NCBI GenBank assembly: GCA_947448885.1
Contig: CANFPJ010000002.1
Coordinates: 1-64,000, forward strand
Source of the DNA: Comamonadaceae bacterium
Lineage (GTDB): Bacteria; Pseudomonadota; Gammaproteobacteria; Burkholderiales; Burkholderiaceae_C
DNA length: 64,000 bases
Direction: 5' to 3'
Positions 6,742 to 55,546 of this stretch are shown here, piece after piece. Each line of letters begins with the position of its first letter. Positions within the stretch are counted from its first letter, which is position 1. Made by a program: the position numbers and the translations under genes. The notes below the pieces were generated by a model, which worked only from the letters and a program-made list of their open reading frames with translations, did no database searches and was not told the origin of the DNA.

Positions 6742-6763
6742 ACCCCGATAAGGCGCCTTGGCC

Positions 6764-9301: not shown

Positions 9302-9309
9302 CGGCCTTT

Positions 9310-9852: not shown

Positions 9853-9884
9853 GGCCCATCTTGCCATGGTGAGCTTTGGCGGAC

Positions 9885-29801: not shown

Positions 29802-30263
29802 TCAGGCCGATGGGTGGCGCTGGGCAATGATTTGGCGCAAACTGTGTTTCAAGGCCTCGGCCTGCGCCAGCCCAAAGGGCTCGAGGATTTTTTCTTCGTG
29901 CGCTTTGGCCTGTTTGATCAGCGATTTGACAATCTTCTGACCCTGCGGGGTGATGCTCACATGCGTCACCCGCCGGTCTTTGGTTTGCGGCGTGCGCCGC
30001 ACATGGCCCAAGGCCTCCATGCGGTCGAGCAAACGGGTCACGGTGGGTTGTTTGGTCAACGAAATGCTGGCCAAGTGGCCAATGCTCATGCCCTTGCTGC
30101 CAAACAAACTGGCCAGCACCCGCCATTCGGCCACCGAAAAACCATGCGAGCGCACGACTTGGTGAAATTCGGCGGAAATCATTTGACTGGCTTGGCCCAG
30201 CAAGGCGGCCAAATAGCCATCCACAAACGGCAGCAGTTGGGGGGGCTTCAAGGGGGGGTGCAT
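29802..30263 (-). CDS. MarR-family transcriptional regulator
   Basis: The 153-residue protein has the MarR winged-helix core: FSVAEWRVLASLF, HLASISLTKQPTVTRLLDRMEALGHV and the wing DRRVTHVSITPQG. MarR proteins are usually repressors of divergent catabolic operons, released by an aromatic or CoA ligand. The gene diverges from the long operon beginning at 30418 across a 154-bp gap holding a TTGACA element, so it is the best candidate for that operon's regulator. Confidence 0.88.
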   Translation of the reverse strand: MHPPLKPPQLLPFVDGYLAALLGQASQMISAEFHQVVRSHGFSVAEWRVLASLFGSKGMSIGHLASISLTKQPTVTRLLDRMEALGHVRRTPQTKDRRVTHVSITPQGQKIVKSLIKQAKAHEEKILEPFGLAQAEALKHSLRQIIAQRHPSA

Positions 30264-35372: not shown

Positions 35373-36698
35373 ATGAGCGCTGTGTCGCCCGACTTGCCCC
35401 GGCACCCTTTGGTGCACGACGATCGTGTGCACCGCGACTTGTACACCGACCCCGCTTTGTTTGCGCAAGAGCGCCAGCGGTTTTTTGGCCGCGCTTGGTT
35501 GTTCGCCGGACACGGCAGCCAAATGCCCCAGGTGGGTGACTATGTGACCCTGGAGCTGTCGGGCCAACCCATTTTGTTGCTGCGCGAGGCGCCAGACCGC
35601 ATCCAGGCCTTCTTCAACCGCTGTGCGCACAAAGGTGCGCAGCTGTACACCCAGGCCCACGGGAATGTGGGCAAGATGATGCGTTGCCCCTATCACGCGT
35701 GGTCATACCGCTTGGACGGTCAGCCCTTGGCCAGGCCGTTGAAAGAGGGTTATGTGGGCACGGCGCTGGATGCCAGCCCCAACGGTCAGGGTCTCACCCG
35801 TTTGCCGGGCGTTCACGTCTACCGCGATTTTGTGTTTGTGCGCCTGAGCCCGGAGGGTTTGGACTTTGAAGCTTATTGGGGTGACGCTTTGCAGGCCATC
35901 GACAACATGGTGGACCGCTCGCCGGTGGGTCGCCTGGAAGTGACCGGTGGGGTGTTGCGCAACACCATGGCTTGCAACTGGAAGATGTACCTGGAGAACA
36001 TCAATGACACCGTGCACCCGGTGTCAGCACACGAGTCGGCCAGCAGCGTGGCGCGCCAACTTTGGCAAGGCCAGCCGAATGACGCGCCCATGCCGATGGC
36101 CATGGCGCAAATCCTGCCCTTTGCCAATGGCTACGATTATTTCGACCGCATGGGGGCGCGCATTTACCCGCAAGGGCACAGCCTGTTGGGGGTGAATTTC
36201 AGCATCCACTCGGCCTATGCGGAATTGCCCGAATACCAAGCCGCGCTGGAAGCGGCCTGGGGTGTTGAGCGCACCCAAGCGGTGCTGCAGCGCTCACCGC
36301 AAAACGCGGTGCTCTACCCCAGCATCGCTTTGAAGGGCTCGCCGTTGTCGATGCGCGTCATCCGCCCCCTGGCCGTTGATCGCACCTTGGTGGAGGCCTG
36401 GAGTTTCCGGGCGGTGGGCGCGCCAGACGTGTTGCTCGAGCGGGCCATGACCTACAACCGTTTGGTGTTTTCACCGATGTCGGTGGTCGCCCATGACGAC
36501 GTGCATTTGTTTGAAAGCATTCAACAAGGCTTGCACGCCCAAGGACAGCCTTGGGTGAGTTTGCACCGCAATCACCAAGCCGGCGAAAGTGAGCACACCC
36601 GCGCCGACACCAACAGCGCCAACGAATGGCTGATGCGCAACCAATACCGTGCATGGGCGCAGGCCATGGCCCAACCACTGGCTTCGGAGTTGGCATGA
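35373..36698 (+). CDS. Aromatic-ring-hydroxylating dioxygenase alpha subunit 1
   Basis: The 441-residue large subunit has the Rieske motif CAHKG...CPYHAW (17-residue spacer) at about residues 86-110. The mononuclear iron site is NDTVHPVSAHES, with D-x-x-H and a following histidine. Length and the small neighbouring beta subunit place it with benzoate/cumate/terephthalate-type two-component dioxygenases. It probably adds O2 across a ring bond of an aromatic acid. No ferredoxin or reductase partner is adjacent. The ATG at 35373 is chosen because it lies just past dctM. It is closely related to alpha subunit 2 at 40959. Confidence 0.9.
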   Translation: MSAVSPDLPRHPLVHDDRVHRDLYTDPALFAQERQRFFGRAWLFAGHGSQMPQVGDYVTLELSGQPILLLREAPDRIQAFFNRCAHKGAQLYTQAHGNVGKMMRCPYHAWSYRLDGQPLARPLKEGYVGTALDASPNGQGLTRLPGVHVYRDFVFVRLSPEGLDFEAYWGDALQAIDNMVDRSPVGRLEVTGGVLRNTMACNWKMYLENINDTVHPVSAHESASSVARQLWQGQPNDAPMPMAMAQILPFANGYDYFDRMGARIYPQGHSLLGVNFSIHSAYAELPEYQAALEAAWGVERTQAVLQRSPQNAVLYPSIALKGSPLSMRVIRPLAVDRTLVEAWSFRAVGAPDVLLERAMTYNRLVFSPMSVVAHDDVHLFESIQQGLHAQGQPWVSLHRNHQAGESEHTRADTNSANEWLMRNQYRAWAQAMAQPLASELA

Positions 36699-37174
36699 GC
36701 GCCGCAGATGTCCAAGCCGTGCAAGACTTTGTCCTGGCCGAAGCGCGTTTGCTCAACCATGGGCTTTACCGTGAATGGTTGGCCTTGTTCGCGCATGATG
36801 GCCGCTATTGGGTGCCCTTGGGCGGCATCGATCAAAACGAATCTGACATCCACAATGCCTTGGCCGACGAGGACCGCTTGCTGCTCAGCCTGCGTGTCGA
36901 GCGCTTGCTGGCGGGGCGTGCCCATTCGCAGCAACCCGCGAGCCGCAGCGCCCATGTGCTGCAAGTCCCGCAAGTCGACTTTTGTGACGGCCAGCGGGCC
37001 GAGGTGTACACACCGTTCACCTACGTCGAGAGCCGGGGCGAGCAACAAATGTGGTTGGCCGGACAGTGGTGCCATCGCCTGTGTCGCGAAGATGGCGCTT
37101 GGCGCATGGCCCTCAAGCGGGTCAACCTGGTCAACGCGGGCGCAGCCCACTGGGCGATACAACTGTTTCCCTGA
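36695..37174 (+). CDS. Aromatic-ring-hydroxylating dioxygenase beta subunit 1
   Basis: The 159-residue small subunit of the NTF2-like fold overlaps the alpha stop (ATGA). Conserved beta-subunit residues are seen in YREWLALFAHDGRYWVPL and RSAHVLQV, with TYVESRGEQQMWLAG near the end. It has a structural role in the alpha3beta3 hexamer. It pairs with alpha subunit 1. Confidence 0.87.
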   Translation: MSAADVQAVQDFVLAEARLLNHGLYREWLALFAHDGRYWVPLGGIDQNESDIHNALADEDRLLLSLRVERLLAGRAHSQQPASRSAHVLQVPQVDFCDGQRAEVYTPFTYVESRGEQQMWLAGQWCHRLCREDGAWRMALKRVNLVNAGAAHWAIQLFP

Positions 37175-37221
37175 TACTTTCATGCACCCCCTGATATTCA
37201 TCACTTTTGGAGAGCGCCACC

Positions 37222-39417
37222 ATGGCTGAACGTTCCTTTGTCCAAGAGGTGCAAAAACTGCGCTTGGGTGCCGGCGATGAATTCGTCGGTGAGGGCATTT
37301 TGGCGGTCACCAAGGCCTTGCTCGAGTCGGGCGTGTCGTATGTGGCGGGCTACCAAGGCGCGCCCATTTCGCACCTGATGGACGTGTTGGCCGACGCCCA
37401 AGACATCTTGCAAGAGCATGGCATCCGCTTTGAAAACAGCGCCAGCGAAGCCACCGCCGCCGCCACCTTGGCCGCCTCGGTCAATTACCCCTTGCGCGGC
37501 GCGGTGACCTTCAAGGCCACGGTGGGCACCAATGTCGCCTCCGACGCCTTGGCCAATTTGGCCTCGGGCGGGGTGACGGGTGGGGCTTTGATCGTGGTCG
37601 GTGAGGACTACGGCGAAGGCTCTTCCATCATGCAAGAGCGCAGCCACGCATTCGCCATGAAGTCGCAAATTTGGTTGCTCGACCCCCGCCCCAATTTGCC
37701 CAGCATGGTCAAGGCGGTGAAGATGGGCTTTGAGCTGTCCGAGGCCAGCCACACCCCGGTGATGTTGCAATTGCGCATCCGCGCCTGCCATGTGCATGGG
37801 CGCTTCATGGCCAGTGACAACCTGCGCGCGCCCTTTGCCCTGCATGAAGCCATGGAGCAACCAAAGCGCGACGTCAGCCGAATCGTGTTGCCCCCCGCGA
37901 GCTTTGTCCACGAGCAAGAAAAACTCCAACAGCGGTGGCCGGCAGCGGTGGCCTTCATTGAAAAGCACCAGCTGAATGAATTTTTCGAGGGCGATCTCCA
38001 AGACGTGGGCATCTTGGTGCAAGGCGGCAATTACAACGCCTTGGTGCGGGTGCTGGAGCGCATGGGTTTGGCCGATGTGTATGGCCGCAGCCGGGTGCCC
38101 TTGTATGTGATGAACGTGGCCTACCCTGTGGTCGATGCCGAGGTCTTGCGCTTTTGCGAAGGCAAGCGGGCGGTCTTGCTGGTCGAAGAAGGCCAGCCCA
38201 ATTTCGTGGAGCAAAACGTCGCCACCGTGTTGCGCCATGCGGGTTGCACTGCCGTGCTGCACGGCAAAGACCTGTTGCCACCGGCGGGTGAATACACCTT
38301 GCACGAGGTGCTCAAAGGCGTGCAGGCCTTTGCCCAGTTGTATGGCTTGCTGGATTCGGTGCAAGCGCCCAGTGCATCGGGTTTGCCCACATCCACCAGC
38401 GTGGTGCCGAGCTTGGCGCCCGCCCCAGCCAAAGTACACAAAGTGATTGCGCTCCAGCCCTTGCAGCAAGTGGTGCAAGCGCGCCCACCCGGCTTTTGCA
38501 CCGGTTGTCCCGAACGTCCGATTTTTGCAGCCATGAAGTTGGTCGAAAAAGACTTGGGCCCCCACCATGTCAGCGCCGACATTGGCTGCCACTTGTTTTC
38601 CATCCTGCCGCCGTTTCACATCGGCAACACCACCATGGGTTACGGTTTGGGCACCGCTGGCGCTTCGGCCATGAATGTGCCAGCGGGCAAGAAGGCCATT
38701 TCCATCATGGGCGATGGTGGCTTTTGGCACAACGGCCTGACCAGTGGCATTGCCAACGCGGTGTTCAACCGCAGCAACAACCTGACCATCGTGGTCGACA
38801 ACAGCTACACCTCGGCCACCGGTGGGCAAGATGTGCTGTCGTCCAAAGCCACCAACCCGACCCGCAGCACTGGCCACTTGATTGAGAAGGCGGTGCGTGG
38901 CGTGGGCGTGGAATGGGTGCGCACCTTCAAGCGCACCTACGACGTGGCCGGCATGCGCGACGCTTTGAAAGAAGCCTTGACCAGCCCCCACGCAGGCCCC
39001 AAGGTGTTGGTGGCCCAGTCGGAGTGCATGCTCAACCGGCAGCGGCGCGAAAAACCCCAGGTGCGTGCACGTTTGGCGGCGGGCCAGCGCGTGGTGCGCG
39101 AGCGCTTTGGCGTGGATGCCGACACCTGCACCGGCGACCGGGCCTGCATCCGCATCTCGGGTTGCCCATCCTTGTCGATCAAAGCCAACCCCGACCCGTT
39201 GCGCACCGACCCGGTGACCACGGTGCTTGACAGCTGCGTGGGTTGCGGCATGTGTGGCGAGGTCTCGCACGCCGCCGTGCTCTGCCCGTCGTTTTACAAA
39301 GCCCAAATCGTCAGCCACCCTTCGGCCTGGGAGCGCTGGTGGAACGGCTTGCGCTCGCGCATCGTGGCCGGCTTGCAGCGCCGCCGCGCCCAACAATTGG
39401 CGCAATGGGCTTTCTGA
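37222..39417 (+). CDS. iorA: Indolepyruvate ferredoxin oxidoreductase alpha subunit (TPP and 2x4Fe-4S)
   Basis: The 731-residue protein carries an N-terminal pyrimidine-binding domain (GYQGAPISHLMD). The central TPP domain has GDGGFWHNGLTSGIANAVFN...DNSYTSATGG at about residues 490-545. The C-terminal ferredoxin domain has CTGDRACIRISGCP and CVGCGMCG...CP. This is the IorA type: oxidative decarboxylation of arylpyruvates to arylacetyl-CoA with reduced ferredoxin. The ATG at 37222 follows TTTTGGAGAG. It is flanked by two Rieske oxygenase pairs, which is unusual. The actual 2-oxoacid is unknown. Confidence 0.9.
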   Translation: MAERSFVQEVQKLRLGAGDEFVGEGILAVTKALLESGVSYVAGYQGAPISHLMDVLADAQDILQEHGIRFENSASEATAAATLAASVNYPLRGAVTFKATVGTNVASDALANLASGGVTGGALIVVGEDYGEGSSIMQERSHAFAMKSQIWLLDPRPNLPSMVKAVKMGFELSEASHTPVMLQLRIRACHVHGRFMASDNLRAPFALHEAMEQPKRDVSRIVLPPASFVHEQEKLQQRWPAAVAFIEKHQLNEFFEGDLQDVGILVQGGNYNALVRVLERMGLADVYGRSRVPLYVMNVAYPVVDAEVLRFCEGKRAVLLVEEGQPNFVEQNVATVLRHAGCTAVLHGKDLLPPAGEYTLHEVLKGVQAFAQLYGLLDSVQAPSASGLPTSTSVVPSLAPAPAKVHKVIALQPLQQVVQARPPGFCTGCPERPIFAAMKLVEKDLGPHHVSADIGCHLFSILPPFHIGNTTMGYGLGTAGASAMNVPAGKKAISIMGDGGFWHNGLTSGIANAVFNRSNNLTIVVDNSYTSATGGQDVLSSKATNPTRSTGHLIEKAVRGVGVEWVRTFKRTYDVAGMRDALKEALTSPHAGPKVLVAQSECMLNRQRREKPQVRARLAAGQRVVRERFGVDADTCTGDRACIRISGCPSLSIKANPDPLRTDPVTTVLDSCVGCGMCGEVSHAAVLCPSFYKAQIVSHPSAWERWWNGLRSRIVAGLQRRRAQQLAQWAF

Positions 39418-40940
39418 TGGCCATGAACCCATCACCCCAACCCATCAAGATCGCCATCCTCGCCATGGGCGGCGAGGGCGGCGGCGTGCTGGCCGACTGG
39501 ATTGTCGATTTGGCCGAGCACGCCGGCCATTGGGCGCAAACCACCTCGGTGCCGGGCGTGGCCCAGCGCACCGGCGCGACCATTTACTACGTCGAGTTGT
39601 TTCCCAAAGCCGTGGCGGGTGCCCCCAGCTTGGAGCCGGTGTTGGCCTTGATGCCCTTGCCAGGTGACGTGGACATCGTGTTGGCCTCCGAGCTGATGGA
39701 AGCCGGCCGCGCGGTGCAGCGCGGCTTGGTCACCCGCGACAGAACCACCCTGATTGCCTCCACCCACCGGGTGTATTCCATCACCGAAAAATCGGCACTG
39801 GGCGATGGCCGTGTGGATCCCGAGCAACTGTTGGCCCATGCCCAGGCCGCTGCCCAACGCCTGGTGAGTTTTGACATGGCCGCCTTGGCCGAGCAAGAGG
39901 GCAGTGTCATCAGCGCGGTGTTGTTCGGTGCGCTGGCAGGTGTGGGTTTGCTGCCTTTTACCCGTGATCTATTTGAAGCCACCATCGAGCGTGCGGGTTT
40001 GGGCGTGAAAAGCAGTTTGCGCGCCTTTGCCCAGGGTCTGAGCCATGCCCAAGCCCCATCGACCAGTGCTGATGCCCATGCGCTCACCCCGGCGCTGGCG
40101 CCCATGCCGGTGCCCACGCCACGCCACCCGGTGCTGCGCGCCTGTGTCGACGAGGTGGCGGCGATGTTCGCCGAGCCCGCGCGTGGCCTGGCCATCGAGG
40201 GGGTGCGGCGCATGGTCGACTACCAAGATCCGGCCTATGCGCGTTTGTATGTCGACCGTTTGCAATCGGTGCATGCCTTGCTGCCGAATGCCCCCGTGGC
40301 GCTGATGGCCGACCTGGCGCGCCACTTGGCGCTGTGGATGTCCTACGAGGACACGGTGCGGGTGGCCGACCTCAAAACCCGTGGCACCCGGTTTGAGCGG
40401 GTGCGCCAAGAGGTGGGTGCACAGCCCGCCCAGTTGCTGCACATCAACGAATACATGCACCCGCGCTTTCAAGAGGTGTGCGAAACCCTGCCTGCCGCTT
40501 TGGGCACTTGGCTGATGGGCCAAGCCACCGTGCGCCGCTGGGGCGAGCGCTTGCTCAGCCATGGCCGCGTGGTGCACACCAATGGCTTGGGTGGCTTTTT
40601 GCTGTTGTATGCGGTGTCAGCCCTCAAACCCTGGCGGCGTGGCACCTTGCGCTACCAACAAGAAAACCAACGCATCGAACAGTGGTTGGCCTTGGTGCGC
40701 CAGTGGCTGCCGACGCAGACAGACTTGGCCCATGAACTGGTTTTGTGCCAGCGCCTGGTCAAGGGCTACAGCGACACCCATGCCCGTGGCCACCAGCACC
40801 TGGACCGCATCTTGGGCTTGTTGGTGCAGCACGGTTCGCGCTGGCAAGCCGCCCCCTTGCGTGCGCTGCGCGAAGCGGCGTTGGCCGACGATCAAGGCAA
40901 GGCTTTTCATGCCACCTTGGCCAGCCAGGGTTGGCTCTGA
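39417..40940 (+). CDS. iorB: Indolepyruvate oxidoreductase beta-type subunit with C-terminal DUF6537-like region
   Basis: The 507-residue protein has an N-terminal POR gamma/IorB domain (ILAMGGEGGGVLADW, TTSVPGVAQRTGATIYY). A C-terminal helical region of about 300 residues, of the kind fused to aerobic proteobacterial IOR beta subunits, follows. It completes the IorA complex by binding CoA/substrate. The stop of iorA and the start overlap (TGATG). ATG codons at 39405 and 39423 are alternatives. Confidence 0.85.
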   Translation: MAMNPSPQPIKIAILAMGGEGGGVLADWIVDLAEHAGHWAQTTSVPGVAQRTGATIYYVELFPKAVAGAPSLEPVLALMPLPGDVDIVLASELMEAGRAVQRGLVTRDRTTLIASTHRVYSITEKSALGDGRVDPEQLLAHAQAAAQRLVSFDMAALAEQEGSVISAVLFGALAGVGLLPFTRDLFEATIERAGLGVKSSLRAFAQGLSHAQAPSTSADAHALTPALAPMPVPTPRHPVLRACVDEVAAMFAEPARGLAIEGVRRMVDYQDPAYARLYVDRLQSVHALLPNAPVALMADLARHLALWMSYEDTVRVADLKTRGTRFERVRQEVGAQPAQLLHINEYMHPRFQEVCETLPAALGTWLMGQATVRRWGERLLSHGRVVHTNGLGGFLLLYAVSALKPWRRGTLRYQQENQRIEQWLALVRQWLPTQTDLAHELVLCQRLVKGYSDTHARGHQHLDRILGLLVQHGSRWQAAPLRALREAALADDQGKAFHATLASQGWL

Positions 40941-40958
40941 TTGCTTGGAGGATTGGAC

Positions 40959-42281
40959 ATGCCCAACGCCCTGACAGAAACATCCCGCTGGCCCTTGTGG
41001 CGCGAGCGTGAAGTGCACCGCGACGCCTTCATCGACCCCGAGGTGTTTGCGCTGGAGATGCAAACCGTGTTCACCCACACCTGGGTGTTTGTGGGGCATG
41101 CCAGCCAAATTCCCCAACCGGGTGACTACGCCACCACCACGGTGGGCGATCAGCCAGTGGTGATGGTGCGCCAATGGGACGGGGGCATCAGCGTTTTGCA
41201 CAACCGCTGCGCCCACAAAGGGGTCAAGGTGGCCGGTCGCGAGCAAGGCAATACGGGCAAATTTTTCCGCTGCCCCTACCACGCCTGGACCTTCAAGTTG
41301 GATGGCTCGGTGTTGGCCATTCCCTTGAAAACCGGCTACGACCGCAATGGTTTCGAAGGCACCGAGGCGGCACTGGGCATGGCCCCGGTGGGCGCGGTGC
41401 AGGTGTACCGCGATTTTGTGTTTTGCCGCTTGGCGCGCCAGGGCGAATCGTTTGCGGATTTTTTTGGCGAATCGCTCTCCACCATCGACAACATGGTCGA
41501 TCGATCCCCCGAAGGCAAGCTCGAAGTGGCCGGTGGGGTGTTGCGCTACATGCACCGCTGCAACTGGAAGATGTTGGTCGACAACCAAACCGATACCTGC
41601 CACCCCATGGTGGCGCATGAATCCTCCGCCGGCACGGCTGTTAAGGTGTGGAAGGCGGCCCCCGAGGGCACCCCCAAGCCCATGGCGGTCGAGCTGTTTG
41701 CGCCCTTCGTCAGCCCTTACGAGTTTTTCGAGGGCATGGGCATCCGCAGTTGGCCCAATGGCCATGGCCACACCGGCACGGCCGACTCCATCCACGCCGC
41801 CTATTCGCCGGTGCCCGGTTATTGGGACCAAATGAAGGCGGCTTATGGCGAGCCACGGGCGCAAAAAATCTTGGGTGAGGTGCGGCACAACACGATTTTC
41901 TTCCCCAACATCATGGTCAAGGGGCCGATCCAAACCCTGCGCGTCTTCAAGCCCTTGGCGGCCGATCGCACCTTGGTCGAGTCGTGGACGTTTCGCTTGG
42001 TGGGCGCACCCGATTTGTTGCTCGAGCGCACCCTGATGTACAACCGCTTGATCAACGCACCGACCTCGGTGGTGGGCCATGATGACCTGGAGGTGTATGA
42101 GCGATCCCAGCAGGCCTTGCATTCGCGGGGACGCGAGTGGGTCAATGTGGGCCGCTTGTACGACAGCGCCGAGACGGCGACGCCGACCCAAGTGGTGAAT
42201 GGCACCAGCGAGCTGCAAATGCGCAACCAATACCGCGCCTGGGCCAAGTACCTGGCCATGGGGCCAGAGGTGCAGCCATGA
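40959..42281 (+). CDS. Aromatic-ring-hydroxylating dioxygenase alpha subunit 2
   Basis: The 440-residue Rieske oxygenase large subunit shows CAHKG...CPYHAW and an iron site QTDTCHPMVAHES. It shares long blocks with alpha subunit 1 (IDNMVDRSP-GKLEV-GGVLR; VGAPDxLLER; MRNQYRAWA), showing the two arose by duplication. Substrate-pocket segments differ, so the specificity may differ. The ATG at 40959 follows TTGGAGGA. It lies 18 bp after iorB. Confidence 0.9.
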   Translation: MPNALTETSRWPLWREREVHRDAFIDPEVFALEMQTVFTHTWVFVGHASQIPQPGDYATTTVGDQPVVMVRQWDGGISVLHNRCAHKGVKVAGREQGNTGKFFRCPYHAWTFKLDGSVLAIPLKTGYDRNGFEGTEAALGMAPVGAVQVYRDFVFCRLARQGESFADFFGESLSTIDNMVDRSPEGKLEVAGGVLRYMHRCNWKMLVDNQTDTCHPMVAHESSAGTAVKVWKAAPEGTPKPMAVELFAPFVSPYEFFEGMGIRSWPNGHGHTGTADSIHAAYSPVPGYWDQMKAAYGEPRAQKILGEVRHNTIFFPNIMVKGPIQTLRVFKPLAADRTLVESWTFRLVGAPDLLLERTLMYNRLINAPTSVVGHDDLEVYERSQQALHSRGREWVNVGRLYDSAETATPTQVVNGTSELQMRNQYRAWAKYLAMGPEVQP

Positions 42282-42760
42282 ACTTGTCGACCCACCAAAC
42301 CCTGGTGGATGTGGTCTACCACGAGGCGCGTTGCATCGATGAGCAGCGCTGGGACGAGTGGCTGGCGCTGTACACCGAAGATGCGCATTACTGGATGCCC
42401 TTGACCCACGGCCAGACCGACCCTTTGTTGCAAGGCTCTTTGATGTACGAGGACAAGATGCTGTTGGGCATCCGGGTCGAGCGGCTCAAGGGCCGGCGCA
42501 CCTTTTCCCAAGAGCCCATCAGCCGCTGCCACCATTTGCTGCAAGCCCCCAGCGTTGAGATGCTCGATGCGGGCTTGGGCCAGGCGCGCTTGCGCACCGC
42601 ATTCCACTATGTCGAAACCCGTGGCGACGAACAACAGCTGTACGCTGGTTGGGCCAGCCATGACTTGCGTTGGCAAGGGACAGATTGGCGCATCGTGCTC
42701 AAACGGGTCGACCTGGTCAATTGCGATGCGGCATTTGGCAACATCCAACTTTTCATGTGA
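42278..42760 (+). CDS. Aromatic-ring-hydroxylating dioxygenase beta subunit 2
   Basis: The 160-residue small subunit overlaps the alpha 2 stop (ATGA). It has the beta landmarks RWDEWLALYTEDAHYWMPL and SRCHHLLQAP, with HYVETRGDEQQLYAGW, parallel to beta subunit 1. It completes the second dioxygenase. An AMP-forming ligase starts 10 bp downstream. Confidence 0.88.
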   Translation: MNLSTHQTLVDVVYHEARCIDEQRWDEWLALYTEDAHYWMPLTHGQTDPLLQGSLMYEDKMLLGIRVERLKGRRTFSQEPISRCHHLLQAPSVEMLDAGLGQARLRTAFHYVETRGDEQQLYAGWASHDLRWQGTDWRIVLKRVDLVNCDAAFGNIQLFM

Positions 42761-42770
42761 AAGCCCCGCC

Positions 42771-44429
42771 ATGCTGTTGACCGATTTGGACACCCGCGCT
42801 GCCGACTGCACTGTGCATGCGGTGCTGCAAGCCGTGGCGCTGCGCCAACCGCAGGCCGATCTGCTGTTCACCGAAGATGTGACCGCTGCCCAATACGGCA
42901 TCGCCCCCGGCACCGTGTCCTACGGGCAGGCCTTGGCCACCGTGGCGCAATGGCGCCAAGCCTATCAAGCGGCGGGCTACGGCCACGGCCACCGGGTGGG
43001 CTTGCTGCTGGACAACCGACCCGACTTTTTGTACCACTGGTGGGCACTCAATGCCTTGGGCGTGTCGGTGGTGCCCATCCATTCGGACATGCGCTCCGCC
43101 GAGTTGCAATACCTGATCGACCACAGCGAAATCGTGTTGGCGGTGGTGCTGCCGAACCGGGTGGCCGATGTGAGCCAAGCTGCCCAAGCGGTGGCTAGCG
43201 ATGCTGCGGTGTGGGCCCATGGCAGCGATGCACCGTTGCCCCCTGCCGCACGGCTGGCCCCCAGTGCTTCACAAGCGCCCGGGCGCGACAGCGAATGTGC
43301 CTTGCTCTACACCTCGGGCACCACCGGTCGGCCCAAGGGCTGCCGCTTGCTCAATGGTTATTTTTTGGCGGCAGGCCAGTGGTATGCCGACCTGGGTGGG
43401 GCCTGTGTGATGCGCTCTGCACAAGAGCGGGTCATCACCCCCTTGCCCTTGAACCACATGAATGCCATGGCCTTCTCCACCATGGTGGTGTTGCTCACCG
43501 GCGGCTGCTTGGTGCAACTCGACCGCTTTCACCCGCAAACCTGGTGGCAAAGCGTGGCCCAAAGCCGCGCCACCGTGGTTCATTACTTGGGCGTCATGCC
43601 CGCCATGCTGTTGTCGGCCCCTGCTCAGCCCAGCGACCGTGCGCACGCGGTGCGTTTTGGGTTTGGGGCCGGTGTGGACCAGCGCAACCACGCGCCGTTT
43701 GAAGCGCGCTTTGGCTTTCCCTTGGTGGAGGCCTGGGCCATGACCGAAACCGGTGCCGCGGCTTGCGTGATGGCCAATGATGAACCGCGCCATGTGGGCA
43801 CCCGCTGCTTTGGCAAACCGCCCCCCGAGATGGCCTACTGCCTGGTCGACGACCAAGGCGTGGAGGTGGGCGTGGGCGTGCCGGGTGAATTGTGGGTGCG
43901 TGCCCAAGGCCCGAATCCGCGCCAAGACTTTTTTGCCGGTTACCTCAAAGACGCGCAGGCCACCGACGAGGCCTGGGCCGGTGGTTGGTTTCACACCGGC
44001 GATTTGGTGCAGCGCGATGCCAAGGGCTTGTTGTATTTTGTCGATCGCAAAAAGAACGTGATCCGCCGCAGTGGCGAAAACATCTCGGCGGTGGAGGTGG
44101 AGAGCGTGTTGGCCCAACACCCCGCGGTCAAGGCCTGCGCCATTGCTGCCACCCCAGATGCGGTGCGCGGCGACGAGGTCTTGGCCTGTGTGGTGACCCG
44201 CGAGGCCTTGCCCGCAGCGCAGCGTGCCGCTTTGGCCCAGGATTTGGTGCGCCACTGTTTGGACCAATTGGCCTATTACAAGGCCCCGGGTTATGTGGCC
44301 TTTGTGGATGCCCTGCCGGTGACCTTGTCGCAAAAAGTCCAGCGTGGGCAATTGCGCGATGTCGCGCGTGAATTGCCTGGGCAAGCGCATTGCATCGACG
44401 TGCGCGCCCTGAAAAAGCGGCAAGCATGA
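42771..44429 (+). CDS. AMP-forming acyl-CoA synthetase (ANL superfamily)
   Basis: The 552-residue protein has the adenylate P-loop YTSGTTGRPKG, the motif AMTETGAA, the hinge region WFHTGDLVQRDAKGLLYFVDRKK and the C-terminal catalytic lysine area SQKVQRGQLRD. It should activate a carboxylate to its CoA thioester with ATP. The overall form is like CaiC/FadK-type ligases, not benzoate-CoA ligase. Situated between a dioxygenase and a thiolase-like gene, it likely loads a ring-derived acid for CoA-dependent cleavage. The ATG at 42771 is chosen because the ORF-track start lies inside the beta subunit gene. The stop overlaps the next start. Confidence 0.87.
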   Translation: MLLTDLDTRAADCTVHAVLQAVALRQPQADLLFTEDVTAAQYGIAPGTVSYGQALATVAQWRQAYQAAGYGHGHRVGLLLDNRPDFLYHWWALNALGVSVVPIHSDMRSAELQYLIDHSEIVLAVVLPNRVADVSQAAQAVASDAAVWAHGSDAPLPPAARLAPSASQAPGRDSECALLYTSGTTGRPKGCRLLNGYFLAAGQWYADLGGACVMRSAQERVITPLPLNHMNAMAFSTMVVLLTGGCLVQLDRFHPQTWWQSVAQSRATVVHYLGVMPAMLLSAPAQPSDRAHAVRFGFGAGVDQRNHAPFEARFGFPLVEAWAMTETGAAACVMANDEPRHVGTRCFGKPPPEMAYCLVDDQGVEVGVGVPGELWVRAQGPNPRQDFFAGYLKDAQATDEAWAGGWFHTGDLVQRDAKGLLYFVDRKKNVIRRSGENISAVEVESVLAQHPAVKACAIAATPDAVRGDEVLACVVTREALPAAQRAALAQDLVRHCLDQLAYYKAPGYVAFVDALPVTLSQKVQRGQLRDVARELPGQAHCIDVRALKKRQA

Positions 44430-45598
44430 GCAGTCGGCGTCAATCCTATGCAGGGGTGGCGGTGGCGGTGCCCATCACCGTGCCCTACCAACGCTACAGC
44501 ACCCAAGGAGCGCATTGGTTTGTCGGCCAGGCGCTGCAGGCCTTGATCCAAGCCTCGGGCATTGGCAAAGACGACATCGATGGCCTGTGCCTGAGCAGTT
44601 TTTCCCTCAACCCGGACACGGCGGTGGGCCTGACCCAACACCTGGGTTTGTCGCCGCGTTGGCTGGACCACATTCCCACTGGCGGGGCTTCGGGCGTGAT
44701 GGCCTTGCGCCGCGCGGCCCGGGCGGTGCAGGCCGGTGACGCCGATGTGGTGGCGTGCATTGGGGCCGACACCAACCACGTTGATTCATTTCGCCAAACC
44801 TTGGGCAGCTTCAGCCACTTTGCGCGCGACGCCAGTTACCCCTACGGCTCGGGTGGACCGAACTCGGTGTTTGCCTTCATCACCGCCAACTACATGCGCA
44901 CCTATGGCGCTCAGCGCGAAGACTTTGGCCGCATCGCGGTGGCCCAACGCCGCAATGCTTTGAAAAACCCCAACGCCTTGTTCAAAAAAGCCTTGAGCTT
45001 GGACGAGTACATGGCGGGGCGGCCGATTTCCGACCCGATCCACCTGTTTGATTGCGTCATGCCTTGTGCGGGGGCGGATGCGTTTTTGGTCATGGGCGAA
45101 CAGCGCGCCCGCGACCTGGGCCTGCCCCACGCCATCATCCGTGGCGCGATTGAACGGCACAATGCTTTTGCCAGCGACCCCATCATGGTGCAAGGCGGTT
45201 GGCGGCGTGACCTGGCCGATTTGTACGCCCAAGCCGATGCCACAGCGGCGCAGGTGGATTTTGTGCAAACCTATGACGACTACCCGGTGATCGTGATGAT
45301 GCAATTCGAAGACTTGGGTTTTTGTGCCAAGGGCGAAGGCCCGCAGTTTGTGCGCGACCACAGCTTGACCCACGATGGCAGCTTTCCCAACAACACCAGC
45401 GGGGGTCAACTGTCGGTGGGCCAGGCCGGTGCGGCAGGCGGCTTCATTGGCATGGTCGAGGCGCTGCGCCAACTGTGCGACTCGGCTGGCGAACGCCAAG
45501 TGACCAACGCGCAACTGGGCTTGGTGTCGGGTTTTGGCATGGTCACCTACGACCGCTGTTTGTGCACCGGCGCGGTGTTGTTGGGGCGACCCGCATGA
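44426..45598 (+). CDS. Thiolase-like protein lacking the catalytic cysteine (Ltp2-type candidate aldolase)
   Basis: The 390-residue protein has the thiolase fold of the SCP-x/Ltp branch, but key catalytic residues are replaced. The nucleophilic cysteine position reads TGGASG (Gly87), the HDCF histidine position reads YDDYP, and the GHPxGATG loop reads GGQLSVGQAG. LEDLGFC-like EDLGFCAKGEGPQF is retained. Such Cys-less homologues pair with DUF35/OB-fold zinc-ribbon proteins; Ltp2-ChsH2 in steroid side-chain degradation is a CoA-thioester retro-aldolase of this type. The next gene encodes just such a zinc ribbon. An aldolase rather than thiolase role is inferred. Confidence 0.82.
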   Translation: MSSRRQSYAGVAVAVPITVPYQRYSTQGAHWFVGQALQALIQASGIGKDDIDGLCLSSFSLNPDTAVGLTQHLGLSPRWLDHIPTGGASGVMALRRAARAVQAGDADVVACIGADTNHVDSFRQTLGSFSHFARDASYPYGSGGPNSVFAFITANYMRTYGAQREDFGRIAVAQRRNALKNPNALFKKALSLDEYMAGRPISDPIHLFDCVMPCAGADAFLVMGEQRARDLGLPHAIIRGAIERHNAFASDPIMVQGGWRRDLADLYAQADATAAQVDFVQTYDDYPVIVMMQFEDLGFCAKGEGPQFVRDHSLTHDGSFPNNTSGGQLSVGQAGAAGGFIGMVEALRQLCDSAGERQVTNAQLGLVSGFGMVTYDRCLCTGAVLLGRPA

Positions 45599-46848
45599 CC
45601 ATGCCGCTGATGCGCCCAGCGCGCAAAAACCCGGTTTTGCGCACCCCGCAAATGAACCTGCCGCCATCGGCGCGCAGCCGTGTGGCCTTGGGACTGACCG
45701 CTGCCGCCGCTGAAGGCCGTTTTGAATTGCAGGTGTGCCAAGACTGCGCCAGCGTGCAGTACCCGCCGCGCGAGGCCTGTGTGCACTGTGTGTCACCGCA
45801 CCTGAAGTGGCGCGCGCAATCGGGCTGGGGCCAGTTGTTGGCCAGCACCACCTTGCACCACAGCAATGATTTGTTTTTTCGCGAGCGCTTGCCCTGGCGC
45901 TTGGGCATGGTGGCGCTGGACGCGGGGCCTTCGGTGATGGTGCACTTGCACAGCGAAGTCACCGAGGCCCCCTGCCGGGTTCGGGTGGGTGCGCGTTTGG
46001 ACCGTGCGGGCCAAGCGGTGTTGATAGGTTTTCCAGAGAAAGAGAGCGAGCACATGGTCGACGACAAAATGCTGCGCGAAATGGGCAGCGACCCCAAGTT
46101 CCGCAAGGCCCTGGTCACCGATGGCAAAACCCCGGTGGGCCAAGCCTTGGTGCGGGCCTTGGTCAAAGCGGGTGCGGACATTGTGTGGGTGGGCCATGCC
46201 GAACCGTGGAAGAAGTTGCCTGGCTTGGCCGAGTTGGCCGAGATCCCACAGGTGACCATGCTGCCACTCGACCTGAGCAATGAGCGCTCGGTCACCACCT
46301 TGGCCGGCGAGATCGGCGGCAAGGTGGACATCGTCATCAACAACGCCGAGGTGCACCGCAGCCACGGCATTGGCAACCGCACCGGCACCGATGTGGCGCG
46401 CATGGAAATGGAGATCAACTACCTGGGCTTGCTGCGCTTGTCCCAGGCCTTGGGCCCGGCTTTGCAAGGGCGCGCCGCCGATGGGGTGACCCACGCCTGC
46501 GCGTGGGTGAACTTGCTGTCAATTTACGCCTTGTCCAATTTCCCCTCTCACGGCACCTACTCGGCGTCCAAGGCCGCAGCTTATTCTTTGTCGCAATGTT
46601 TGCGCGCCGAGATGCGGCCATCGGGCATTCGCGTGGTCCATGTGTTTCCCGGACCGATTGACGATGAATGGAACCAAAACATGCCACCACCCAAATTGGC
46701 GCCCGACACCTTGGCCCAAGCGGTGATCAAAGCCTTGCGCGATGGCACCGAAGACGTGTACCCCGGTGACGTGGCCCAAGAGTGGTTGCAGCGCTGGCGC
46801 GACAACCCCAAGGTGTTGGAGCGAGAAATCGCCGCAGGGGGCACATGA
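45595..46848 (+). CDS. Zn-ribbon/OB-fold (DUF35) domain fused to a degenerate SDR domain
   Basis: The 417-residue protein begins with a rubredoxin-like zinc ribbon (C48-x2-C51 and C62-x2-C65, CQDC...CVHC) and an OB-fold (about residues 66-145). It continues into an SDR domain from about residue 160. The SDR has an altered nucleotide loop (VTDGKTPVGQA), NNAE for NNAG, and YSASK with the catalytic tyrosine and lysine. DUF35 proteins bind CoA substrates and associate with thiolase-like partners; the gene overlaps such a partner. The fusion suggests C-C cleavage coupled to reduction or oxidation of the product. I know of no characterised protein with this architecture. The start 45595 is set by the overlap with the previous stop. 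Confidence 0.8.
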   Translation: MTMPLMRPARKNPVLRTPQMNLPPSARSRVALGLTAAAAEGRFELQVCQDCASVQYPPREACVHCVSPHLKWRAQSGWGQLLASTTLHHSNDLFFRERLPWRLGMVALDAGPSVMVHLHSEVTEAPCRVRVGARLDRAGQAVLIGFPEKESEHMVDDKMLREMGSDPKFRKALVTDGKTPVGQALVRALVKAGADIVWVGHAEPWKKLPGLAELAEIPQVTMLPLDLSNERSVTTLAGEIGGKVDIVINNAEVHRSHGIGNRTGTDVARMEMEINYLGLLRLSQALGPALQGRAADGVTHACAWVNLLSIYALSNFPSHGTYSASKAAAYSLSQCLRAEMRPSGIRVVHVFPGPIDDEWNQNMPPPKLAPDTLAQAVIKALRDGTEDVYPGDVAQEWLQRWRDNPKVLEREIAAGGT

Positions 46849-47645
46849 GCATGGCCACCACTGCCCCCTTGTTGAATGCCTTGGTCGAGGCCATGCGCAC
46901 GCGGCGCATTGAAGTCATCGACCTGACCCAAACCCTGACCCCTGACTTTCCGCAAATTGCCCTGCCGCCCGAGATGGGCCAGTGCTGGCCGTTTCGCATC
47001 GAAGAGGCATCGCATTACGATGCGCGCGGCCCGGGTTGGTACTGGAACAACTTTTCCTGTGGCGAGCACACCGGCACCCACTTCGACGCGCCCATCCATT
47101 GGATCTCTGGGCGCGACCTGCCGAACAATGCCGTTGACACCATTCCGGTGCAGCACTTTGTGGCCCCGGCTTGCGTGGTCGATTGCTCGGCCCAGGTGGC
47201 ACAAAACCCCGACTACCTGTTGACGGTGGACGATTTGTTGGCCTTTGAGGCCCAGCATGGCCGCATCCCCGCCGGTGCTTGGTTGCTCATGCGCACCGAT
47301 TGGTCGCAGCGCAGCGACCCCGAGGCCTACCAAAATTTTGACGAAACCGGCCAGCACACCCCCGGCCCCAGCACCGAAGCCGTGCGCTTTTTGGTCGATC
47401 AGCGCGACGTCTTGGGTTTTGGTTCCGAGGCCATTGGCACCGATGCCGGTCAGGGCTATCACCTGCGTCCCCCTTATCCCTGCCACTACTACATGCACGG
47501 TGCGGGCCGCTATGGCTTGCAGTGCTTGGCCAATTTGGACCGATTGCCCCCCACAGGCGCGGTGATTTTGAGCCCGCCCTTGAAGATTCAAAAAGGCAGT
47601 GGCAGCCCCTTGCGGGTGTTGGCCTTGGTGGAGCACGCCGCGTGA
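46845..47645 (+). CDS. Cyclase-family metal-dependent hydrolase (kynurenine formamidase / isatin hydrolase fold)
   Basis: The 266-residue protein belongs to the PF04199 cyclase family. It has IDLTQTLTPDFP at the start and the metal-binding motif GEHTGTHFDAPIHW (H-x-G-T-H-x-D-x-P-x-H) at about residues 68-80. Relatives hydrolyse amides or lactams of aromatic compounds, such as N-formylkynurenine and isatin, or act as mandelamidases. It overlaps both neighbours (ATGA, GTGA) and is therefore an integral step in the pathway. The specific substrate is not determined. Confidence 0.85.
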   Translation: MSMATTAPLLNALVEAMRTRRIEVIDLTQTLTPDFPQIALPPEMGQCWPFRIEEASHYDARGPGWYWNNFSCGEHTGTHFDAPIHWISGRDLPNNAVDTIPVQHFVAPACVVDCSAQVAQNPDYLLTVDDLLAFEAQHGRIPAGAWLLMRTDWSQRSDPEAYQNFDETGQHTPGPSTEAVRFLVDQRDVLGFGSEAIGTDAGQGYHLRPPYPCHYYMHGAGRYGLQCLANLDRLPPTGAVILSPPLKIQKGSGSPLRVLALVEHAA

Positions 47646-48391
47646 GCCACGCCCCGGCACCGGGTTGGCGACAGGTGGCCTTGGTCAGTGGCGGCAGCGC
47701 CGGCATTGGGCGCGCCGTGTGCGAACAGCTGTTGGCGCAAGGCTGCGAGGTGGTGTCGCTGGACATCCAAGCCCCAGGCTGGCAGCACCCCCACTTGCAT
47801 GCGGTGCAGGTGGATTTGCTGGACCGCGAAGCCACCGCGCAAGCCCTGCAGCAAGTGGTGCAGGCGTGGCCCATCAACACCGTGGTGCACAACGCGGGGT
47901 TGATCCGCGCCGCCTTGCTGCCCGATGTGCGCCTGAGCGACTTGGACGATTTGACCCAACTGCACTTGGCCTGCGCCATCCAAATGGTGCAAGCGGCCTT
48001 GCCCACCATGCAGGCACAACAATTTGGCCGGGTGGTGCTGTTGTCATCGCGCGCGGCGGTGGGCCTGGCCACCCGCAGTGCCTATTCGGCCACCAAGGCC
48101 GGTCTGATGGGCATGGCCCGCACCTGGGCATTGGAGTTGGGCCCACAGGGCATCACTGTGAATGTGATTGCGCCTGGCCCCATCCGCAGCACAGCCATGT
48201 TCCACGATGTGGTGCCTGCGGGCAGCGACAAAGAGGCGCAATTGGCCGCGTCCTTGCCCGTGCGCCGCTTGGGAGAGCCCGCCGATGTGGCCCGTACCGC
48301 CGGTTTTTTTGCCCAGCCCGACAGCGGCTTCATCACCGGCCAGGTTTTGTACGTTTGTGGGGGTGCCAGCGTGGGGAGTTTGAATTTGTGA
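47642..48391 (+). CDS. Short-chain dehydrogenase/reductase
   Basis: The 249-residue SDR has the cofactor motif ALVSGGSAGIGRA, HNAG in place of NNAG, LLSSRAAVG and YSATK, and FITGQVLYVCGG at the end. It starts with GTG at 47642, overlapping the cyclase stop. It is the last gene before the 142-bp leader of the ABC transporter and may be the final dehydrogenase of the pathway. The substrate is unknown. Confidence 0.86.
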   Translation: MSHAPAPGWRQVALVSGGSAGIGRAVCEQLLAQGCEVVSLDIQAPGWQHPHLHAVQVDLLDREATAQALQQVVQAWPINTVVHNAGLIRAALLPDVRLSDLDDLTQLHLACAIQMVQAALPTMQAQQFGRVVLLSSRAAVGLATRSAYSATKAGLMGMARTWALELGPQGITVNVIAPGPIRSTAMFHDVVPAGSDKEAQLAASLPVRRLGEPADVARTAGFFAQPDSGFITGQVLYVCGGASVGSLNL

Positions 48392-48468: not shown

Positions 48469-48533
48469 AATGTGGGGTTTTGGATATTTGCCGGTTCTTC
48501 AGGGATCGGCCTTGTTGTTTTAAAGGAGTGATC

Positions 48534-49721
48534 ATGCGCACATCAAAATCGGGCCGTTTGCTGGCCTTGTCTTTGGCCAGCTTGCTGGCCGCTTCCCTGG
48601 TACAGGCCGCTGACAAGGTCAAGGTCGGGTTTGTCAGCACCTTGTCGGGCCCCAATGGCGCATTGGGCGCAGAGATTCGCGATGCCTTCAACTTGGCGGT
48701 CAAGCTCAATGGCGGCAAGCTCGGGGGTTTGCCCGCCGAGGTGTTGATTGGCGACGACCAGTTCAAGCCCGATGTGGGCAAGCAACTGTTTGAGCGCTAT
48801 GTCAAGCGTGACAAGGTCGACTTCATGACCGGTGTGGTGTTCTCCAACATCATGTTGGCGGGTTTGCCCGAGGCCGTGGGCGAAAAAACCTTTTACCTGA
48901 GCCCCAACGCCGCACCATCGCCCATCGCCGGCAAAGAGTGCACCCCTTATTTCTTTGCCGTGTCTTGGCCCAATGATGCCTATCACGAGGCCGCTGGTCA
49001 GTACGCCACCACCAAAGGCTTCAAGTCGGCTTATTTGGTCGCCCCCAATTACCAAGCGGGCAAAGACTCCTTGGCCGGTTTCAAGCGTTACTACAAAGGC
49101 AAGGTGGCCGCTGAGGTCTACACCAAGCTGGGCCAATTGGATTACTCGGCAGAGTTGGCCGAAATCCGCGCCGCCAAACCCGACGTGCTGTATTTCTTCT
49201 TGCCCGGGGGCATGGGCATCAACTTCATCAAGCAGTTTGTCGCCGCCGGTTTGAACAAAGACACCAAGCTGGTGTTGCCTGGCTTTGGCTCTGACCAAGA
49301 CATCATCCGCAGCGTGGGTGACGAAATGCTGGGCATCAACGACACCGCCCACTGGGGCTTGGACTTGAACAACGCGGCCAACAAAAAGTTTGTGGCCGAG
49401 TTTGAAAAAGAATACAAGCGCTTGCCCACCGTCTACGCCGCCCAAGGCTATGACACGGCTTTGTTGATCGATGCAGCCGTGCGTGGTGCCAAAGGCAACT
49501 TGGAAGACAAAGAAGCCCTGCGCCGCCACATCAAAGAGGCCAAGTTTGAATCGGTGCGCGGTGCCTTCAAGTTCAACACCAACCAGTACCCGATCCAAAA
49601 CTACTATTTGCGCGAAGTGCAAAAAGACGCGCAGGGTCGCTTGGTCAACAAGATCGTTTCGCAAACCCCCGTGTTGGCCAACCATGGCGACGCTTACGTG
49701 CAAGATTGCCCCATGAAATAA
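48534..49721 (+). CDS. Branched-chain-type ABC transporter substrate-binding protein
   Basis: The 395-residue periplasmic protein has a signal peptide (LLALSLASLLAASLVQAADK) and a Peripla_BP_6 fold start KVGFVSTLSGPNGALGAEI. It also shows LDYSAELAEIRAAKPD and VYAAQGYDTALLID. Proteins of this type in aromatic clusters bind aromatic acids as well as amino acids. The ATG at 48534 follows AAAGGAGTG. A strong terminator directly downstream suggests it is made in excess over the permease. Confidence 0.9.
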   Translation: MRTSKSGRLLALSLASLLAASLVQAADKVKVGFVSTLSGPNGALGAEIRDAFNLAVKLNGGKLGGLPAEVLIGDDQFKPDVGKQLFERYVKRDKVDFMTGVVFSNIMLAGLPEAVGEKTFYLSPNAAPSPIAGKECTPYFFAVSWPNDAYHEAAGQYATTKGFKSAYLVAPNYQAGKDSLAGFKRYYKGKVAAEVYTKLGQLDYSAELAEIRAAKPDVLYFFLPGGMGINFIKQFVAAGLNKDTKLVLPGFGSDQDIIRSVGDEMLGINDTAHWGLDLNNAANKKFVAEFEKEYKRLPTVYAAQGYDTALLIDAAVRGAKGNLEDKEALRRHIKEAKFESVRGAFKFNTNQYPIQNYYLREVQKDAQGRLVNKIVSQTPVLANHGDAYVQDCPMK

Positions 49722-54207: not shown

Positions 54208-55533
54208 ATGACCGCTATTGACCTGGACCACTTGGTCCAACCCGACCGTGTGCACCGCAGCGTGTACACCGACCAGGCCTTGTTTGACCTGGAGATGGAA
54301 CACATGTTTGAAAAGACGTGGGTCTACTGTGGCCACGAGTCCCAGGTCAAGGCGATGGGCGATTACCACACGCTGCACATTGGGCGCCAGCCCATGGTGA
54401 TGGTGCGCGACCGCGATCAATCCATCCGCGTGCTCTACAACCGCTGCCCGCACCGGGGCGTGCAACTGTGCGGCACCCACAGCGGCAACACCGGTTCGGG
54501 CTTCGTTTGTCCCTACCATGCTTGGAGTTTCCATCTCAACGGACAAGTGCGAGCCATTCCCCTGGCCAAAGGTTATGACGGCACCCGCTTGAAACTGGAC
54601 GACCCGCAAGCCAGCATGGTGCCGGCTGCCCGCGTCGACAGTTACCGGGGCTTTGTGTTTGCCAGCCTGAGCGCTGAAGGCCCGAGCTTGCTGGAATTTT
54701 TGGGCGAGGCCAAGGTGGCGTTTGATGACATGTGCGACCGCTCACCGGTGGGCGAGGTCGAGGTGGTGCCGGTGTGCCACCGGGTGGTGCAGCACTCCAA
54801 CTGGAAGTTCTTCATGGAGAACCAGTTGGACGCCTTGCACCCCTCGGTCACCCACCAGTCCACCGGCGTGTCGGCGCGGCGCATTGAAGAGCGGGTCAAA
54901 AAGAGCCAAGGCTCGGCCCCGCTGTATTTCCATTACCTGTCGACATTTGCTTCGAGCTTTGACCAGTGGGATTCGGTGCAAACCGTCAATTTCCCCTACG
55001 GGCACGGCATTTTGAAGGCCTACATGGGCCTGCGCCCCACCGACCCCGACACCGTGGAATACGAGGGTTTGCTGAAGAAAGCCTATGGTGAAGAAAAGGC
55101 CGAGGAATACCTCTCGCGCAGCATTCACCATGTGCTCATCTACCCCTACCTGTCGGTGCAGTCGCCCTTGCAGCAATTGCGCTGCTTGCGCCCCATCGGT
55201 CCGGACAAAACCTTGTCAGAGATTTGGCACTTTCGGCTCAAGGGCGCGCCCGAGGCGATTTACCGCCGCGCCTTGTGGTACTTCAACCTGGTCAATTCAC
55301 CCGCCACCATGATCAATGCCGATGACTTGGAAAACTGGACCCGTGGCCAATGGGGCTTGCAGTCCAAGGGCGGCGAGTGGGTGAGCTTTCACCGCAACAT
55401 GGGCGGCGACACCGAGACCAACGGCGTGTCTTACTCCAACAACGGCACCTCTGAGGTCGTGATGCGCAACCAGTTCAAAGCCTGGCAGGCCTATATCCGT
55501 CCCGCGGTGCAAGCCGCGGTCAGCATTGCTTGA
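54208..55533 (+). CDS. Aromatic-ring-hydroxylating dioxygenase alpha subunit 3
   Basis: The 441-residue Rieske large subunit has CPHRG...CPYHAW and an iron-site segment QLDALHPSVTHQS. It is more distant from alpha subunits 1 and 2 than they are from each other (shared ends such as MRNQFKAWQAY). It forms a unit with the following beta subunit under the divergent LysR. Substrate unknown, probably an aromatic acid. The start at 54208 follows CGGAGATGCC. Again no reductase gene is adjacent. Confidence 0.9.
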   Translation: MTAIDLDHLVQPDRVHRSVYTDQALFDLEMEHMFEKTWVYCGHESQVKAMGDYHTLHIGRQPMVMVRDRDQSIRVLYNRCPHRGVQLCGTHSGNTGSGFVCPYHAWSFHLNGQVRAIPLAKGYDGTRLKLDDPQASMVPAARVDSYRGFVFASLSAEGPSLLEFLGEAKVAFDDMCDRSPVGEVEVVPVCHRVVQHSNWKFFMENQLDALHPSVTHQSTGVSARRIEERVKKSQGSAPLYFHYLSTFASSFDQWDSVQTVNFPYGHGILKAYMGLRPTDPDTVEYEGLLKKAYGEEKAEEYLSRSIHHVLIYPYLSVQSPLQQLRCLRPIGPDKTLSEIWHFRLKGAPEAIYRRALWYFNLVNSPATMINADDLENWTRGQWGLQSKGGEWVSFHRNMGGDTETNGVSYSNNGTSEVVMRNQFKAWQAYIRPAVQAAVSIA

Positions 55534-55546
55534 GGGAGCACACCAC

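Follow-up and report, generated by a model that had tools for sequence, protein, structure and literature searches.

A cysteine-less thiolase homologue and its DUF35/pseudo-SDR partner as a proposed redox-neutral retro-aldolase of bacterial auxin degradation

Sal and Ltp2 are retro-aldolases complexed with a DUF35 domain. The bile-acid enzyme Sal, partnered by Shy (9myr; PMC12329534, PMC11321319), releases acetyl-CoA from a beta-hydroxyacyl-CoA, and the steroid enzyme Ltp2, partnered by ChsH2 (6ok1), cleaves at a tertiary alcohol. The Tyr of a YDxF/Y motif is the catalytic base in both, and in Sal a Gly at the position of the thiolase nucleophilic Cys precludes thiolysis (PMC12329534); Sal variants with Cys304 changed to Ala, Ser or His are dead. 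Shy binds Sal via its DUF35 domain, and Sal is active when paired with this domain only (PMC11321319). Here we compare with these complexes a pair of overlapping genes, iadG and iadH, encoded in a 64,000-nucleotide stretch (the window) of contig CANFPJ010000002.1 from a Comamonadaceae bacterium (GCA_947448885.1), whose surroundings are an iad locus for aerobic degradation of the auxin indole-3-acetic acid (IAA).

The genes and the pathway are already known: carrying the iad locus enables root bacteria to clear auxin and rescue root growth, and further strains have been engineered to contain it (PMC12633357). Loss of IAA itself requires IadDE only. Normal formation of anthranilate requires all of iadF, iadG, iadH and iadI, and deletion of any of these in Variovorax paradoxus raises a C10H9NO4 species and lowers anthranilate (PMC12633357). 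Isatin and isatinate have been detected in cultures of the same species (PMC9613470). The middle steps have so far been assigned from annotation only, which made IadG a ketothiolase, IadH an alcohol dehydrogenase and IadI a kynurenine formamidase (PMC12633357).

Our analysis makes it likely that IadG and IadH instead carry out a redox-neutral retro-aldol cleavage of dioxindole-3-acetyl-CoA (DOAA-CoA) to isatin and acetyl-CoA on a DUF35/pseudo-SDR scaffold, SDR denoting the short-chain dehydrogenase/reductase fold. The beta carbon of DOAA-CoA, C3, is a tertiary alcohol and not oxidisable to a beta-ketone. Thiolysis is therefore closed, and a retro-aldol yields isatin and acetyl-CoA directly. 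Such a reaction fits the chemistry, the adjoining isatin hydrolase described below and the lack of a working dehydrogenase, and the published thiolase and dehydrogenase labels for the IadG and IadH steps are probably wrong. With somewhat less assurance, we also favour the wider reading of a thiolase-fold retro-aldolase outside steroid degradation that uses a Tyr-Asp pair and a DUF35 plus pseudo-SDR subunit, the published reductive step being really redox-neutral.

IadG carries the Pfam domains Thiolase_N and Thiolase_C_1, both above the curated cut-offs. An earlier reading of the window, made without database searches, had noted that this protein lacks the nucleophilic Cys, the His of HDCF and the GHP loop, and alignment to the Cys-containing thiolase 7yvy agrees: the Cys is aligned with Gly87, the His of HD-F with Tyr283 and GHP with GQA (332-334). 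What IadG does have is the Gly at the Cys position, the Tyr of YDxF/Y and a DUF35 partner gene next door, as expected of a protein of the Sal/Ltp2 type. Gly87 and this Tyr are kept in all aligned IadG orthologues except for the Gly of one Azospirillum copy, apparently a broken one, and YD is always followed by Asp. The closest solved structures by sequence are Sal (9myr, E 8e-47), 4u4e and Ltp2 (6ok1). The structural model of IadG is confident (predicted local distance difference test score, pLDDT, 83.5; predicted template-modelling score, pTM, 0.88), and a fold search with it placed Sal (TM 0.88) and Ltp2 (0.82) as the best two, ahead of true thiolases by E-value.

Sal, the top match by sequence and by fold, thus shares with IadG the Gly, the Tyr base in YDxY, a GQxG loop and the neighbouring DUF35 partner, and its release of acetyl-CoA is what we propose for IadG. 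The two are only ~29% identical, however, and differ in the third motif residue (Asp in IadG, the essential Cys304 in the YDCY of Sal), in substrate (a steroid for Sal, a proposed oxindole for IadG) and in the second domain of the partner, a MaoC hydratase in Shy and a pseudo-SDR in IadH. Ltp2 has in common with IadG the Cys-less thiolase fold, the YDxF Tyr base, the DUF35 partner and, as proposed, cleavage at a tertiary alcohol, whereas its His296 (in YDHF) and second catalytic Tyr344 are absent from IadG, which has YDDY and GQA there. Since IadG has neither Sal Cys304, replaced by an invariant Asp285, nor Ltp2 His296 and Tyr344, Asp285 of YDDY is a candidate proton donor. In a tree whose deep branches are long and whose deep forks are moderately supported, the IadG sequences form a compact clade with a long stem; next to it come a group with a YDDF motif and then Sal. 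The sequence-only reading had called IadG a retro-aldolase of the Ltp2 kind and had suggested a phylogeny against Ltp2; the type is supported by sequence and fold, but IadG forms a separate YDDY clade nearer to Sal. Motif and tree rule out a simple Ltp2 orthologue. From sequence, structure prediction and the genetics of others, IadG would be a third kind of DUF35-associated retro-aldolase.

The YDDF sister group was seen in three loci (L139, L140 and L151) and probably comprises unnamed retro-aldolases for another substrate. In L139 and L140 the YDDF gene has as neighbours a gene for an enoyl-CoA hydratase and one for a stand-alone OB-fold protein without most of the zinc Cys, a setting that suits a hydratase-aldolase pair.

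The next gene product, IadI, is by its sequence an isatin hydrolase. It resembles the isatin hydrolases LaIHA and RsIHA (5nna, 5nmp; PMC6117287) over nearly its whole length (E 2e-113) and has the HTGTHFDAP metal motif, in contrast to the preprint, which calls IadI a kynurenine formamidase or broad amidase. Roseibium aggregatum has, immediately downstream of iadH, a gene 96% identical to that for LaIHA, the enzyme of Labrenzia (now Roseibium) aggregata for which structure and activity are published (PMC6117287). Nearly every locus on a contig long enough to show it has an isatin hydrolase gene next to the IadG/IadH pair.

IadH matches the Pfam families zf-ChsH2 (residues 36-65), OB_ChsH2_C (72-136) and adh_short (171-362), each scoring above its curated cut-off, and its zinc Cys (C48/C51/C62/C65) are invariant, which bears out the fusion of a DUF35 zinc ribbon to an SDR seen in the sequence-only reading. 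By sequence, the DUF35 half is closest to the DUF35 domains of ChsH2 and Shy; a fold search with the IadH model gave SDRs only among the matches listed, so the DUF35 half is assigned from sequence. The MaoC domain joined to DUF35 in ChsH2 has no catalytic residues and therefore sets a precedent for a non-catalytic partner domain in IadH. In a plasmid locus of Sulfitobacter sp. THAF37 (8749-10349 of that locus), a second IadG-like gene, 61% identical and with YDDY, is followed by a stand-alone DUF35 gene; a fused IadH lies in this locus besides the pair without an SDR. The arrangement suggests that the half essential to IadH is DUF35, with the pseudo-SDR as an additional scaffold. Most probably, IadH serves as a scaffold subunit that combines DUF35 with a pseudo-SDR.

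Whether the SDR half is catalytic or structural had been left as a question, with a degraded glycine motif and NNAE set against a retained YxxxK. These motifs are indeed read in the window copy (TDGKTPVG, NNAE, S309 and Y322-x3-K326), and comparison of 97 IadH orthologues, 81 betaproteobacterial and 16 alphaproteobacterial, favours a structural role for the family. Of the 97, 93 lack the catalytic Tyr, the catalytic Lys or both of them, which leaves four copies, the window's included, with both residues of YxxxK. The first Gly of the TGxxxGxG cofactor loop (position 176) is Asp in 94 and Asn in the other three. Position 322 is Phe in 77/81 betaproteobacterial copies, among them all 35 from loci titled Variovorax; alphaproteobacterial copies have lost the Lys in every case (16/16) and in many also the Tyr (YSASQ, HSASC, FSASN, AAASA and others). 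Ruegeria pomeroyi, a tested IAA degrader carrying the iad locus, has Thr and Ala at the two positions. On the IadH tree, at least 10 changes fall at position 322 and at least 7 at position 326, and the window copy lies among those with Phe322. Conservation of the SDR half is nevertheless on a par with that of the DUF35 half (78 versus 74-76% among betaproteobacteria; 50 versus 44-56% between beta- and alphaproteobacteria), and it is therefore retained rather than decaying, for some purpose other than SDR chemistry. Because Tyr or Lys is so widely lost and the cofactor-loop Gly is replaced in every copy, the SDR half is, across the family, best read as a structural pseudo-enzyme. The best fold match of this half is an NADP-bound SDR (34% identity), and the modelled fold points to an ancestor that was probably an ordinary enzyme. 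The same residue losses, together with the presence of IadI as a dedicated enzyme for isatin, tell against the earlier idea that the fused SDR processes the released carbonyl.

From the computed homology, fold, motif conservation, locus and IadI identities and SDR residue losses we infer the reaction, the Tyr-Asp dyad, the complex and the scaffold role, as follows. IadF would convert dioxindole-3-acetate (DOAA) into the CoA ester, which is a tertiary beta-hydroxyacyl-CoA. In this ester IadG, which lacks a nucleophilic Cys, would break the C3-CH2 bond in a retro-aldol reaction. Tyr283 would take the proton of the C3 hydroxyl and Asp285, as the candidate donor, would protonate the acetyl-CoA enolate, giving isatin and acetyl-CoA with no redox cofactor. 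By analogy with Sal-Shy and Ltp2-ChsH2, IadH would bind IadG through its DUF35 half, and its SDR half would be kept for oligomerisation, stability or docking. IadI would then hydrolyse isatin and pull the reversible aldol equilibrium forward; the build-up of C10H9NO4 in the iadI mutant fits such a step.

Several observations weigh against a redox-neutral step, and some of them favour an active SDR half. In that alternative, which joins the proposal of the sequence-only reading to the 'alcohol dehydrogenase' of the preprint, IadG frees isatin, the SDR of IadH reduces it to dioxindole on the complex, and IadI or another enzyme opens the ring. A product of formula C8H7NO2, that of dioxindole (reduced isatin), was found in the iadI mutant, from which the preprint proposes reductive removal, and it accumulates also in the iadCDEFGH_JK2 strain (PMC12633357). 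The window copy keeps the full N275-S309-Y322-K326 tetrad, and Asn275, Ser309 and Lys326 are kept in 81/81 betaproteobacterial copies; the sequence of strain CL014 was not among the loci that could be named. The IadH model is moderate (pLDDT 69.7), and an Asp might not be competent at the position of Sal Cys304, where Ala, Ser and His abolish activity. The tetrad led us to consider a catalytic SDR seriously, and it was dropped for the family once the 97 orthologues had been compared: the losses at Tyr322 in betaproteobacteria, Variovorax included, and at Lys326 in alphaproteobacteria, with Asp or Asn at the first cofactor-loop Gly throughout, make it unlikely, and with an isatin hydrolase as the next enzyme a reduction would be a detour. 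Under the retro-aldol reading, C8H7NO2 in the iadI mutant is assumed to be isatin reduced off-pathway by other cell reductases, and this is its weakest link.

A different doubt concerns the substrate. The window holds three Rieske alpha/beta pairs, and its IadD is ~55% identical to that of Variovorax as against ~80% for IadG and IadH, so the locus might degrade a relative of IAA, with IadG-IadH acting as a retro-aldolase on another or an additional beta-hydroxyacyl-CoA. We think this improbable, given an IadR-like repressor with the Ser and Arg that contact IAA and the isatin hydrolase gene beside the pair in nearly all loci long enough to include it. The ketothiolase (EC 2.3.1.16) of the preprint annotation draws on the thiolase superfamily domains of IadG and on automatic annotation; it is very hard to reconcile with the missing Cys, His and GHP loop, or with the established chemistry of a tertiary alcohol at C3 that cannot become the ketone needed for thiolysis. 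Active-site residues and substrate chemistry thus rule it out for IadG.

No paper naming DUF35-SDR fusions or an aldolase role for IadG was found in the open literature, subscription papers being outside the scope of the search. Within it, a third type of retro-aldolase with a DUF35 partner, a revised step that yields isatin and an IadH whose SDR is a pseudo-enzyme appear to be new. DUF35-aldolase complexes would thereby extend beyond steroids, and an enzyme domain would have been reused, catalytically dead, as part of an aldolase complex. If true, the family-wide loss of SDR catalysis with the fold fully conserved makes IadH a new type of aldolase scaffold.

Conservation of the pair with its neighbours spans Burkholderiales and, with lower identities, Alphaproteobacteria (IadG 57-93%, IadH 40-94%), and a search of other genomes for the fusion, as had been suggested, finds it in both groups. 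It occurs in many Burkholderiales, including 23/301 genomes of the window's family, spread over 16 genera, and on plasmids of Roseibium, Sulfitobacter, Ruegeria, Sagittula, Novosphingobium and others, where annotated copies are named SDR oxidoreductase only. Among 399 sampled genomes of the phylum, the eight with an IadG of at least 59% identity are exactly the eight with a fused IadH. In a plasmid locus of Agrobacterium pusense (6001-7254 of that locus), the SDR gene is annotated from 6376 and homology to the DUF35 half begins at 6001, which reflects either a mis-annotated start or a damaged gene.

The setting of the pair went unrecognised as an auxin locus in the sequence-only reading, which had described the two open reading frames correctly: both are real and complete, they overlap by ATGA, and they are conserved with their neighbours across Burkholderiales. 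The window resembles the iad loci of Variovorax, Bradyrhizobium and Ruegeria (PMC9613470, PMC12633357) in gene order, IadR-like repressor, IorAB, IadDE and IadF-J, and differs from them in having no IadC reductase gene beside IadDE; for IadG, IadH and IadI we depart from the published assignments. The order iadD-E-F-G-H-I-J is shared with other iad loci, and genes for IorA and IorB, exclusive iad markers (PMC9613470), adjoin iadDE. The MarR gene product best matches MarR_73 of V. paradoxus, solved with auxins (7kki/7kfo), an IAA-binding repressor of the iad locus whose S28 and R46 contact the IAA carboxylate (PMC9613470). Ser30 and Arg48 of the window protein align to these residues, both ends of the match being equally long.

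Table 1. Positions of the iad genes and of the motifs discussed, in window coordinates.
Feature	Position	Strand	Remark
IadR-like MarR repressor	29802..30263	-	closest structures 7kki/7kfo, E 5e-52
IadA/IorA-like TPP (thiamine pyrophosphate)-dependent 2-oxoacid:ferredoxin oxidoreductase, alpha subunit	37207..39417	+	
IadB/IorB-like beta subunit	39396..40940	+	
IadD, Rieske oxygenase alpha subunit	40941..42281	+	closest solved structure 9o71 (V. paradoxus IadD)
IadE, Rieske oxygenase beta subunit	42275..42760	+	
IadF, acyl-CoA ligase	42771..44429	+	would form the CoA thioester substrate
IadG, Cys-less thiolase-fold protein	44426..45598	+	390 aa; proposed retro-aldolase for dioxindole-3-acetyl-CoA
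G86-G87-A88 codons of IadG	44681..44689	+	Gly87 at thiolase nucleophilic Cys
YDDY motif of IadG, Y283-D284-D285-Y286	45272..45283	+	invariant in family; replaces thiolase HDCF, Sal YDCY, Ltp2 YDHF
IadH, DUF35 zinc ribbon/OB domain fused to degenerate SDR domain	45595..46848	+	417 aa
DUF35 part of IadH	45700..46002	+	zf-ChsH2 aa 36-65 with C48/C51/C62/C65; OB_ChsH2_C aa 72-136
SDR part of IadH	46105..46680	+	Pfam match aa 171-362; catalytic and cofactor positions not conserved
Degenerate cofactor loop TDGKTPVGQ of IadH	46117..46143	+	Asp176 (46120-46122) at first Gly of TGxxxGxG
YSASK of IadH, Y322 and K326	46558..46572	+	Tyr is Phe in most betaproteobacterial copies; Lys lost in 16/16 alphaproteobacterial copies
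IadI, isatin hydrolase (cyclase family)	46842..47645	+	proposed next step
IadJ, ordinary SDR	47642..48391	+	intact SGGSAGIG, HNAG, YSATK; in-operon control

ATP-binding cassette (ABC) transporter genes lie downstream of IadJ, and an ABC binding protein (48480-49721) occupies the expected position of iadK2, although its identity as IadK2 could not be shown. The nearest homologues of the reductase gene iadC, which is not beside iadDE in the window and which V. paradoxus CL014 does not need to degrade IAA, are on other contigs of the genome (40% and 37% identical). On one of these, contig C7 (23291-24721), a MarR gene adjoins a reductase 40% identical to the IadC-like reductase of Roseibium, possibly the electron donor otherwise missing from the locus. 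The three Rieske pairs of the window are separate (35394-37174, 40941-42760 and 54208-56182); only the middle one holds the IadDE position, and anthranilate or related aromatics may be substrates of the other two. Elsewhere in the window's genome, three more stand-alone DUF35 genes adjoin thiolase-like proteins with the motifs YDNF, YDSF and YDCF, which are possibly further aldolase-type enzymes.

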